From Candidatus Dadabacteria bacterium (GTDB lineage Bacteria > Desulfobacterota_D > UBA1144 > Nemesobacterales > UBA2774): a stretch of DNA of 11,231 bases. This document shows, in pieces, positions 2,294 to 5,700 of the stretch. Numbering within the stretch: the first letter of the stretch is position 1; every line of letters starts with the position of its first letter. The notes under the pieces were generated by a model. That model was given only the letters and a program-made list of their open reading frames with translations, made no database searches and was not told the DNA's origin. Position numbers and translations under genes: made by a program. Location of the stretch: contig QIHJ01000120.1 of the NCBI GenBank assembly GCA_003229065.1, positions 1-11,231 of the forward strand. The letters are read 5' to 3'.

Positions 2294-2447
2294 CACCGGG
2301 TCTAACATTTGATCTCCGATTTACTTAGAGAACTCGGATTTGAAACCTATCCGGGCTCCTGATCATCTCCTATTAAGCCAGTGCCCGATTCATTCCGCTT
2401 TCTTGCGGAAGCCCATGCTAAGACGTAAATATTATTGGAAATATATA
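2294..2447. other. Intergenic stretch with one short hairpin
   Basis: No coding frame with a ribosome site is visible. TTCCGC (2393-2398) and GCGGAA (2405-2410) can form a 6-bp hairpin with a 6-nt loop, but no U-run follows. It could end the zinc-ribbon transcript only weakly or with Rho. Confidence 0.4.
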
Positions 2448-2474
2448 TTGACAGCGCACTAAAACGGTTATAAG
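2448..2474 (+). promoter_or_regulatory. Promoter of the riboswitch-TPR transcript
   Basis: A perfect TTGACA (2448-2453) is followed after 15 nt by TATAAG (2469-2474), five of six consensus bases. The inferred start, near 2481, lies just ahead of the 5' strand of the aptamer P1 stem, which fits a riboswitch leader. The spacer is shorter than the optimal 17 nt. Confidence 0.55.
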
Positions 2475-2495
2475 TTTTGTATTGACGGGGAAAAG

Positions 2496-2608
2496 TTAAT
2501 CCTAAGTCGAAAAAGGCAAACCATCCGAAAGGGTGGGACGCAAAGTCACGGGCCTAAATGACAGTGGTCAATAGTCACCGGCAGCCGGACTACCGAGGGC
2601 GGGATTGT
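2496..2608 (+). promoter_or_regulatory. Cyclic-di-GMP-I (GEMM-I) riboswitch aptamer
   Basis: The strand carries the GEMM-I signature in order. GGCAAACC (2515-2522) leads into a stem closed by a GAAA tetraloop (CCATCC 2521-2526 with GGGTGG 2531-2536), then the invariant GGGACGCAAAG (2535-2545). Next come ACGGGCCTAAA with the second hairpin (TGAC 2559-2562 with GTCA 2574-2577) and the closing GCAGCCGGACTACCGA (2581-2596). A P1 stem forms between AATCC (2498-2502) and GGATT (2602-2606). By alignment to the Vibrio cholerae Vc2 RNA as I recall it, the base equivalent to G20, which distinguishes c-di-GMP from cGAMP binders (A20), is G2515, so c-di-GMP is the expected ligand. The A that intercalates between the two guanines would be A2542. 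It lies in the leader of the giant TPR gene, on the same strand. Confidence 0.9.
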
Positions 2609-2615
2609 TATGTAG

Positions 2616-2772
2616 ACGGATATGCTCCGTGCATTTATTTATTCCTTCTTCTTTGCGTCCGATATTATCATCCTATATGCCTGGTTTGAATACGCGCACT
2701 TAAGCTGTATAAGTCAATTATATCCAGCCTGATCGCGCGCATGAGCTTTTTTGCCGCATTATAAGGAATAGA
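2616..2772 (+). promoter_or_regulatory. Riboswitch expression platform with anti-aptamer and anti-SD strands
   Basis: CTTTGCGTCC (2651-2660) is the exact reverse complement of GGACGCAAAG (2536-2545), the ligand-binding core of the aptamer. TATTCCTT (2640-2647) is the exact reverse complement of AAGGAATA (2763-2770), the ribosome site of the giant gene; the helix extends through a G-U and a U-A pair to 2638/2772. TGCG (2654-2657) can add pairs with CGCA (2755-2758), using bases of the anti-aptamer strand. The two long helices cross, so they would normally exclude each other. A small hairpin (ACGGA 2616-2620 with TCCGT 2626-2630) sits between aptamer and switching strand. The pairings are read from the sequence; ligand-induced translational repression is inferred. 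Confidence 0.65.
2763..2767 (+). promoter_or_regulatory. Ribosome binding site of the giant TPR gene
   Basis: AAGGA lies 7 nt before ATG 2775. An in-frame TAG at 2769-2771 excludes any earlier start in this frame. The site is the target of the complementary strand at 2638-2647. Confidence 0.8.
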
Positions 2773-2774
2773 GT

Positions 2775-5700
2775 ATGGGTGAAACATCGAAGTCCGGTCG
2801 GGAGAAAGACCTGCGTTTAAATCCACTTGACGCTATCTGGAATCCGGAGTATCAGATTCCGTGTATAGTCGTCTACCCCGGGGAAGCTGAGGGCTCTGCG
2901 CTTGAGTTAATATTAAATCCGCTTATTGACGTACTTTCTGAAAAGGGTTTTAAGCTACATGCTCTACCCGAAGAGTCATCACAGAGTGGGGAATTAGAGA
3001 ACCTGGCGCGGGACTGTGCACTGGGTGTACTTGTACTCGTGGGGCCGGGCTCCGCTCTTCAGTACTCTTACGGTTATTTAAAAGGAAAAGGGAAGTTTGT
3101 ACTTACCATAAGAGATATTGCAGGTGAAGCCGAGCTTGGCGAAAGCAGCGCTCCCGAACCACCGGCGCAAAGCCCGTTAGATCGATTAAAAAGAAATTCA
3201 AGCTTAAGCGCGCTTAATGAGATCCGGGTAGATAGCTCTTCTCAAAACCCTTCGTCCGAGAATCCGGCAAATAAAATCAGATACGAAATAGACTCTTTTA
3301 TACCGGCTGTTTTAGAAAGCTATATTTCGGAGCTAACCAAGACCTACAGCTCCATGGACCCGGAGCTCTATTCTACGCTCAGGGAATTGGCTCGGGAAGT
3401 ATCGAATTATTATACGAAAACTGCCGAGTACGATATAAGCGATTTGGATAAATCTTATGATTTACTTACCGTCTGGGAGGAAAGATCCGGACGAAGCACT
3501 CCATCTCAAATCCTGACTATGCTCGCATCGCTTTATACGAATCAAGCCGATAAAAATATAGATATCGAATCGGAAAAAAATGAATGTTATTACAAAGCTG
3601 CCCAAATATATGAGAGTGTATCCTCAAGTGATTCCGATGCTGCGCTCTCTTCGTGCTTTAAGATAAAACAGGGTGAAATACTCATGTTATCTCTCAATGA
3701 TCGTGAGGATAGAGATAAAATCGAATTGGCCGCGAAGGTCTTTGAGGAAGGGCTCAATTATTTTGGTAAAGATAAGAGCAAACCCGTGTTCGCTTATCTA
3801 AATAAGAAACTCGGGGAAATCTATGAAGTATTTGCAGGTCTTAAAGAGAAGGATAAGGAGAAAAAGGAGCTCCTTAAGTGGTCCCTTACCCATATAAGGA
3901 GCGCGCTTGAGGTCTATGAGACCTCAGAGTTTCAATCGGAATATTTTGACCTGATGAATTTGCAAGGCCGGGTACTTAGCACTCTGGGTGAATTCGATAG
4001 CAGCGGCGAGGGGATAGGAGAGGCGATCGACATATTAAAAGAATCGCTCAGGTTCAATACGTCTGAGGAATCACCGGAGGCGTATTCCGAAGCACTCATA
4101 GACCTGGGTAACGCGTACCGTACGCAGGCCGAGGTCGATGCATCGGCCGAAAGCTGCATATTGGCCATAGAAGCATACGAGAAAGCGCTTCAGGTTTACT
4201 CGGATGGGGATTTTGCGCTTGAGTCTGCTCTTGTATGCAACAACCTCGGTGCTTCATACGATATGCTGGCTCAGATAGAAGAGAGCCCCGAGAGCTGCCG
4301 CGGGGCCATTTTAAACTTTGAGGAAGCTTTGAGGTTTTATTCATTAAACGATTATCCGGATCAGTACTCTACAGCACAAAACAATATAGGGAATGCTTAC
4401 GGCACTCTCGCGGAGCTTGAAGACAGAGCCCGAAACTGCGAAAAAGCAGTGTTATGCTACCTGGAATCTCTCAAAGTGAGGACTCTTGAGCACTACCCTC
4501 TCGAGTACGCAATGACACAGAATAATCTGGGTGTGGTTTACAGCACACTTTCGGAGGTTCAAGATAAGGAAGAGAGCTGTATTAATGCTGTGAGCGCGTA
4601 TTCCGAGGCCCTCAAGGTATACGACACTTCCGAGCACCCTTTAGAGCGCGCCATGATATCAAATAACCTTGGAGATGCGTACTCTTTATTATCCGAGGCA
4701 CAGGATACAGCCCCGAATTTGAAACAAGCGGCGGGCTCCTACAGGGAAGCCCTGAAGGTATATACAGAGGATGAGAATCCTTTAAATTCTGCCATAATCC
4801 ATAAGAAACTGGGTGACGTGCTCTTGAGCCTTACAGAGCTTGAAGCGGGTAAGGAGTACGCAAGTGAATCCGCTTCATCATACGAGCGAGCGCTTAAGGT
4901 TTATAGTAGAGAAGAGCATCCGATAGAATACGCCCGGATAAAGATGAATGAAGGTAGGCTTTTCTCCGGGGTGGCTCTGCTTCAGGATAATCCCGAAGGT
5001 TTTGAAAGGGTTTTTCTGGCATTGGATGAAGCAATATCGATTATGTGTAAGGAGGAGTTTCCTGAAGAGGCTTTTGAGATAAAACTCTTAAAGGGGGACG
5101 CATATGCGGGGCTGTCGGGTATGGATGCAAGTATAGATGCAAGTGTAGATGATAGATGCCGGAGCTTAGAAAACGCGCTTAAACAATATGAATCCGCTTT
5201 GAGCATATGTTCTTCTTTTGATACTCAAGAGAGAAGCGCTCGTATAAGAAATAAAATAGGGCAGTGTCACGCCGACATGTCGATCGTAAAGGACTGTGCC
5301 GAGCACTCTGAAAAAGCCGTAGAGGCGTTCTCAGAAGCCCTTGAGCTCATGAATCCTGAAGAGCATCCTATGCCGCATGCTCTTATAAAGAACAATTTGG
5401 GCGCAGCCTATGGGCGGCTTGAGCAAGCGGACGAGGGCGGTAATTACACAGAGCTCGCCTTGGCCGCGCTTGAGAGCGCAGCCTTTACTCTTAAGACGTT
5501 TGGTGCTAGCGGAAACGAAGCCAGGGCGCTCTATGCCAAATCTCTTGGAAATCTGGGAGCTCTTTACAATAGAATCTCCGACGCAGACGATCCGGGGAGT
5601 AATGTGAGAAAATCTGTCGAATTGTTGGAAGAGGCGCTTTCCGTAATTACGCTTGAAATAAACCCGTTTGAGTATGCAAGAATAAAAAATAATCTAGCTA

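Follow-up and report, generated by a model that had tools for sequence, protein, structure and literature searches.

The locus and its leader

The window, i.e. the whole stretch of DNA that was analyzed (11,231 nucleotides), is an entire contig (C28) of a 2.05 Mb Candidatus Dadabacteria assembly of 446 contigs. Its plus strand carries the gene of a giant tetratricopeptide repeat (TPR) protein, and its minus strand a HEAT-repeat protein gene (2-1435), which runs off the opposite contig end. The leader of the TPR gene contains a riboswitch aptamer, and the start codon of the open frame is found 176 nt 3' of the aptamer end. Upstream of the aptamer there is a promoter-like pair of hexamers (TTGACA and TATAAG), both identical in the corresponding leader of a relative from the same genus (L035 in genome G001, hereafter the same-genus leader) and similar by eye in three cousins. 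A consensus promoter scan, which required a spacer of 16-18 nt, did not call this arrangement with its 15-nt spacer. A distant-mode search of a phage collection with positions 2301-3100 gave no match, and a phage origin of the locus was rejected on this ground. No report of this leader was found among open-licence papers that mention Dadabacteria together with riboswitches or with tetratricopeptide; judged by title and abstract, these concern carbon fixation and community genomics, respectively. The parts of the leader are listed in Table 1.

Table 1. Features of the TPR gene and its leader (SD, Shine-Dalgarno)
Feature	Position	Strand	Basis or remark
Promoter-like TTGACA-15 nt-TATAAG	2448..2474	+	Read from sequence; putative transcript start ~2481
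P1 extension, 5' strand	2497..2503	+	Pairs with 2601-2607; forms in aptamer-constrained folds
Class I c-di-GMP riboswitch aptamer	2506..2598	+	cmscan, RF03167; G2515, A2542 and C2593 mapped to G20, A47 and C92
Aptamer core strand (P2 3' strand, J2/3, P3 start), target of anti-core	2536..2545	+	Pair list; exact complement of 2651-2660
P1 extension, 3' strand	2601..2607	+	Aptamer-constrained folds
Small hairpin ACGGA/TCCGT	2616..2630	+	Most predicted folds, both states; terminator-like by pattern
Anti-SD strand	2638..2647	+	Pyrimidine-rich anti-ribosome-site strand continues to ~2654
Anti-core (anti-aptamer) strand	2651..2660	+	Complementarity, shuffles, same-genus comparison
CGCA, possible extension with 2654-2657	2755..2758	+	3/4 pairs kept in same-genus leader
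Ribosome site (SD region)	2763..2772	+	Sequestered in aptamer-formed state (predicted folds)
Giant TPR protein (2819 aa or more; frame open at contig end)	2775..11231	+	No Pfam match in first 402 residues

Aptamer class and likely ligand

As assessed by cmscan, the aptamer matches RF03167 with 73.7 bits (E 2.5e-16), which lies above the gathering cut-off of 59 bits and places it in the c-di-GMP-I aptamer clan CL00126. The ligand-contact set of this clan, G20/A47/C92, is present as G2515, A2542 and C2593. The assignment of these bases to positions 20, 47 and 92 is our own mapping onto published numbering. Because the three positions read G, A and C, c-di-GMP is the likeliest ligand judging from the sequence, the GGC label of RF03167 notwithstanding. 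This label presumably names the bases at positions 20/47/92. Position 47 is a G in the RF03167 consensus (GACGCGAA) and an A both in the RF01051 consensus and in the window (GACGCAAA), so that the c-di-GMP-I-GGC variant was rejected despite the best-scoring model. A 3',3'-cGAMP (GEMM-Ib) riboswitch, which has the same scaffold, was rejected as well, since position 20 is G2515 where an A is needed; PMC6274999, the source of the position numbering, links the exchange G20A to binding of cGAMP. Overall, the aptamer resembles c-di-GMP-I (GEMM-I; RF01051/RF03167) in its fold, core sequence, GAAA tetraloop and A47, which is that of the RF01051 consensus. It differs in scoring best against the GGC model yet lacking its G47, in an insert in P3 and in the 176 nt that separate it from the start codon.

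The same genome encodes three GGDEF matches, which read GGEEF, GGDEF and SGDEF, and one PilZ match. All three GGDEF matches have a D at the position where cGAMP-making Hypr enzymes have an S. The residue named S347 in PMC6456294 probably corresponds to this position. In two relatives, PilZ-domain genes lie directly under the same riboswitch type (L028, 1708-2052, in G007; L086, 283-699, in G003). Four more leaders (L012, L030, L088 and L089) precede proteins that look similar by eye to those PilZ-domain proteins. Elsewhere in the genome of the window (G000), three more loci match this riboswitch family less strongly, all below the gathering score (C3:275-365, C5:15333-15421 and C112:332-416).

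Competing pairings predicted for the aptamer and the ribosome site

A sequence-only reading of this leader had described three complementarities, each of which was recovered. The aptamer core strand (GGACGCAAAG, 2536-2545) is the exact reverse complement of the anti-core strand (CTTTGCGTCC, 2651-2660), giving 10 Watson-Crick pairs and a duplex of -15.6 kcal/mol. The anti-SD strand (TTTATTCCTT, 2638-2647) can pair with the ribosome site (AAGGAATAGA, 2763-2772) through eight consecutive Watson-Crick pairs, one G-U and one A-U (-8.8 kcal/mol), and TGCG at 2654-2657 can pair with CGCA at 2755-2758. The 10-base match of the anti-core strand exceeds what chance would give: an exact complement of at least 10 bases to the core occurred in 1/2000 dinucleotide shuffles of the leader, and to any part of the aptamer in 25/2000. 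An exact complement of at least 8 bases to the ribosome site occurred in 184/2000, so the anti-SD match is not unusual alone; by duplex energy, too, the ribosome-site match of the window is not clearly beyond shuffles (fraction 0.068).

The leader was folded either freely or with the aptamer pairs enforced, using 20 combinations of RNA ends per leader, and the aptamer-formed fold was taken to represent the ligand-bound state. The fold models are nested, contain no tertiary contacts and are sensitive to RNA ends. Accessibility was measured either from -13 to +3 (wide measure) or at the SD (narrow measure). In the free window leader, the exact anti-core helix reaches an occupancy of 51-93%. The exact anti-SD helix stands at 0.00 in all 40 free-state truncations of the window and same-genus leaders, and with the aptamer enforced it ranges in the window from 3% to 97%, depending on the RNA ends. 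When registers are summed, the strand 2638-2660 of the window makes a mean of 8.2 core pairs and 0.4 ribosome-site pairs in the free state, against 0.0 and 8.0, respectively, once the aptamer is formed. The aptamer-formed state has more than three strand/ribosome-site pairs in 17/20 truncations (the lowest value is 1.7). Concomitantly, wide accessibility drops in 20/20 truncations (mean 0.52 to 0.31) and narrow accessibility in 19/20; with 45 nt upstream, two of the five truncations are nearly flat on the narrow measure (0.43 to 0.40 and 0.45 to 0.46). This comparison of folds with and without a constrained aptamer, which the sequence-only reading had put forward as a check, thus came out in its favor. 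The predicted closure of the site in the aptamer-formed state, seen in silico in the same-genus leader as well, agrees with its proposal that ligand closes the site and turns translation off.

We compared these scores with those of shuffled leaders in which the aptamer, ribosome site and coding start were kept. Anti-core occupancy was as high as in the window in 1/400 shuffles, the accessibility loss was as large in 3/400, and both were reached together in 0/400; on the narrow measure, each score and their combination gave 0/120. As shuffles rarely match the predicted behavior of the window, and never jointly, its leader looks built to switch in these models, and in the direction that had been proposed.

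The same-genus leader is identical to the window at 129/176 positions between aptamer and start codon. All ten anti-core pairs are kept (one G-C becomes G-U) and an eleventh is gained, with 12/13 bases identical over 2648-2660; this is conservation rather than covariation, because the aptamer itself constrains the core side. For the anti-SD helix, 8/10 pairs are possible, with 2640/2770 and 2638/2772 broken and one compensatory change from U-A to A-U at 2646/2764, which, as a single pair from a single comparison, is weak support for this register. With the aptamer enforced, the homologous anti-SD helix of the same-genus leader forms at 0.00-0.43, mostly 0.00. The folds of this leader prefer another register, in which the anti-core strand itself takes part and the SD, the start codon and the first codons are all covered. 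Its mean strand pairs with core and ribosome site nevertheless change from 6.6 and 0.0 in the free state to 0.0 and 7.9 when the aptamer is formed, with more than three ribosome-site pairs in 15/20 truncations (the lowest value is 0.04), and wide accessibility drops in 20/20. Shuffles equal it in anti-core occupancy in 3/300, in accessibility loss in 14/300 and in both in 0/300 (narrow measure, 2/120, 4/120 and 1/120). In both leaders, nested models therefore predict mutually exclusive anti-aptamer and anti-ribosome-site pairings. The anti-SD register of the sequence-only reading, whose pairs exist in the window, is only partly kept in this relative.

Forcing the aptamer to form costs ~5 kcal/mol when the RNA ends at 2605 and 12 kcal/mol when it ends at 2660; over the full leader the cost is 8-15 kcal/mol in the window and 10-17 kcal/mol in the same-genus leader. 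Equilibrium ligand binding that pays 8-15 kcal/mol is unlikely by our own estimate. Because the aptamer fold is worse than the free fold by this amount, control would have to be kinetic, with regulation during transcription, and the aptamer would have to capture its ligand before the polymerase passes ~2660. Kinetic control had no part in the sequence-only reading. It has a parallel in the group 3 strand-exchange riboswitches, which are under kinetic control according to a review (PMC10907184) and in which a downstream strand likewise chooses between the aptamer and a regulatory partner; the anti-core strand of the window differs in targeting P2/J2-3/P3.

These findings probably reflect a class I c-di-GMP riboswitch that acts as a strand-exchange translational OFF switch in the leader of the giant TPR gene. 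The aptamer would form first during transcription. With c-di-GMP bound, the core would be locked and the downstream strand 2638-2660 left free to fold onto the SD/start region, turning translation off. Without c-di-GMP, 2651-2660 would invade the core at 2536-2545 and destroy the pocket; with the strand so occupied, the ribosome site would be more open and translation on. The trapping of a ribosome site and AUG linked to c-di-GMP has a precedent in Bc1 of Bacillus thuringiensis, where, according to PMC11218506, SHAPE shows that c-di-GMP causes both to be trapped in the mRNA. Bc1 resembles the window in its class I aptamer, its long platform and this trapping, which in the window is predicted. 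It differs in that it carries two intrinsic terminators and controls transcription and translation in opposed directions, whereas the window has no supported terminator; the same paper reports no response of Bc1 to c-di-GMP in native expression.

Could the aptamer act on transcription instead, by controlling termination, intrinsic or Rho-dependent, within the leader, with the pairing of the ribosome site secondary? Terminators are used by Cd1 and pilM, two relatives in class I (PMC9262584), and these precedents, together with the length of the leader and one terminator-like pattern at 2616-2630, speak for such control. However, the pattern is weak, with 5 pairs (shuffles average 0.4), its hairpin appears in folds of both states, its T-rich tail is missing in the same-genus leader, and in the scan the T run at 2747-2752 is not preceded by a hairpin. 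An intrinsic terminator in the platform was rejected, with this weak and unconserved pattern its only candidate, and we regard transcription-level control, which might then depend on Rho, as unlikely. We see similarly little chance that the anti-core strand is real while the trap uses another register or strand than the 2638-2647 helix, or that the switch works in the ON direction. The unremarkable 8-base match (184/2000), the two anti-SD pairs broken in the same-genus leader and the different register preferred by its strand, onto the SD, start codon and first codons, would all fit this explanation; against it, the site closes with the aptamer in both members of the genus, in 20/20 truncations each on the wide measure, and the compensatory change supports the 2638-2647 register.

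A further arrangement concerns the geometry of the two long helices, which had been said to cross and to compete. The folds bear out competition between the anti-core helix and the aptamer, but crossing alone does not make the two helices exclusive; only the overlap at 2654-2657 or the shifted register does. They might thus coexist as a pseudoknot, leaving the ribosome site closed in both states with no such switch, and the geometry permits it (10 bp, an inner loop of 3 nt, 10 bp, and loops of 92 and 102 nt). This we consider very improbable: the free-state anti-SD helix is at 0.00 in 40/40 truncations, though nested models cannot represent pseudoknots, and part of the anti-core strand is also needed for the 2654-2657 extension as well as for the register of the same-genus leader. 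The translational OFF switch by strand exchange is the reading that we prefer.

Related leaders and the giant TPR protein

We assembled 55 Dadabacterial aptamer leaders, which are part of the riboswitch matches found. Duplexes were scored in 46 of these (9 TPR and 37 other), three having no recognizable core and six no usable start; accessibility was scored in 41 (9 TPR and 32 other), eight having too few aptamer pairs and six no usable start. For the non-TPR leaders the start codon was chosen by an automatic procedure and may be incorrect in some cases. In the six TPR leaders of the same family, the shuffle fractions of the anti-core duplex are 0.006, 0.024, 0.106, 0.074, 0.008 and 0.090, and those of the ribosome-site duplex, none of them beyond shuffles, are 0.068, 0.428, 0.442, 0.460, 0.474 and 0.110. 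None of the 37 other leaders scored has an anti-core fraction of 0.03 or below (the lowest is 0.038), and the three TPR leaders of families f6 and f7 have no anti-core (0.45-0.94). The leaders of G003, G012 and G007, which belong to the same family in another genus, have anti-core strands by eye that are interrupted or, in G007, duplicated. Their joint shuffle counts are 3/120, 1/120 and 0/120, respectively, and the best-scoring anti-core duplex in G012 lies at +121, unlike the strand seen by eye near +73. The tandem duplicate in G007 (L040) reads TTTGCGTACTTTGCGTC. The G004 leader, with a joint count of 21/120, gives no signal; by eye, its GCGTCCTT strand could pair with either the core or the SD.

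The six same-family TPR leaders show drops in SD accessibility of 0.33, 0.27, 0.10, 0.19, 0.07 and 0.01, and the remaining three TPR leaders drops of 0.03, 0.04 and 0.04. Among the 32 non-TPR leaders, the drop is at least 0.25 in one (L093) and at least 0.10 in five, and the behavior is therefore not unique to TPR leaders. L093 and the related L092 and L094 precede another riboswitch-linked gene family, with predicted closure of the ribosome site in the presence of the aptamer (drops of 0.44, 0.13 and 0.20). In L078 (G029:C4), a TPR leader without anti-core, one strand can pair with the sequence from the SD to the AUG (duplex of -20.6 kcal/mol; fraction of 0.006 against shuffles); with the aptamer constrained, accessibility in the G029 leader is nearly unchanged (0.18 to 0.14). 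Covariation in related leaders, a further check that had been suggested, gave a divided answer: the anti-core pairing is kept and one anti-SD change is compensatory, but two anti-SD pairs are broken in the one close relative, and beyond the genus the switch signal fades, being weaker or absent in the cousins.

The frame starting at 2775 encodes TPR repeats; residues 1-402 of the protein gave no Pfam match at a cut-off of 0.001. Matches of its N-terminal domain to BrxB (E 0.14) and UPF0669 (E 0.18) were taken as noise. Among 43 genomes of the taxonomic order that were searched, the N terminus of the protein was found in 10, the one of the window included, and in seven of these ten the aptamer lies directly upstream of the TPR gene (G018, G026 and G034 are without it). 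G004 and G029 add two genomes with a riboswitch ahead of a frame whose apparent relatedness was judged by eye or from its repeats. A protein search restricted by length band and shared words found no wider homologues of the N terminus at E 1e-3, and contig scans for its relatives found none in the first and three in the second. Structure prediction of the N-terminal domain for four sequences had a mean pLDDT of 60, with PDB matches to flavodoxin-like, TIR and DNPH1 structures, which we treat as no more than a lead because of this low confidence. In the distant relative L037, matches to Nuc_deoxyrib_tr (E 0.0088) and CAP12 TIR (E 0.25) are below curated cut-offs.

A broader interpretation, which we find possible and rather doubtful, is that one Dadabacterial family is involved, in which c-di-GMP would repress lineage-specific giant TPR proteins through a fused anti-core/anti-ribosome-site strand. 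With an N-terminal domain distantly flavodoxin/TIR/deoxyribosyltransferase-like, these might be c-di-GMP-gated signaling or defense proteins of a kind not described before. The window itself offers a specific and testable pair of competing strands in a class I c-di-GMP riboswitch from an uncultured lineage. The mechanism would be an ordinary one for riboswitches, and its possible interest lies in the target, since it would link c-di-GMP to an uncharacterized giant TPR protein.
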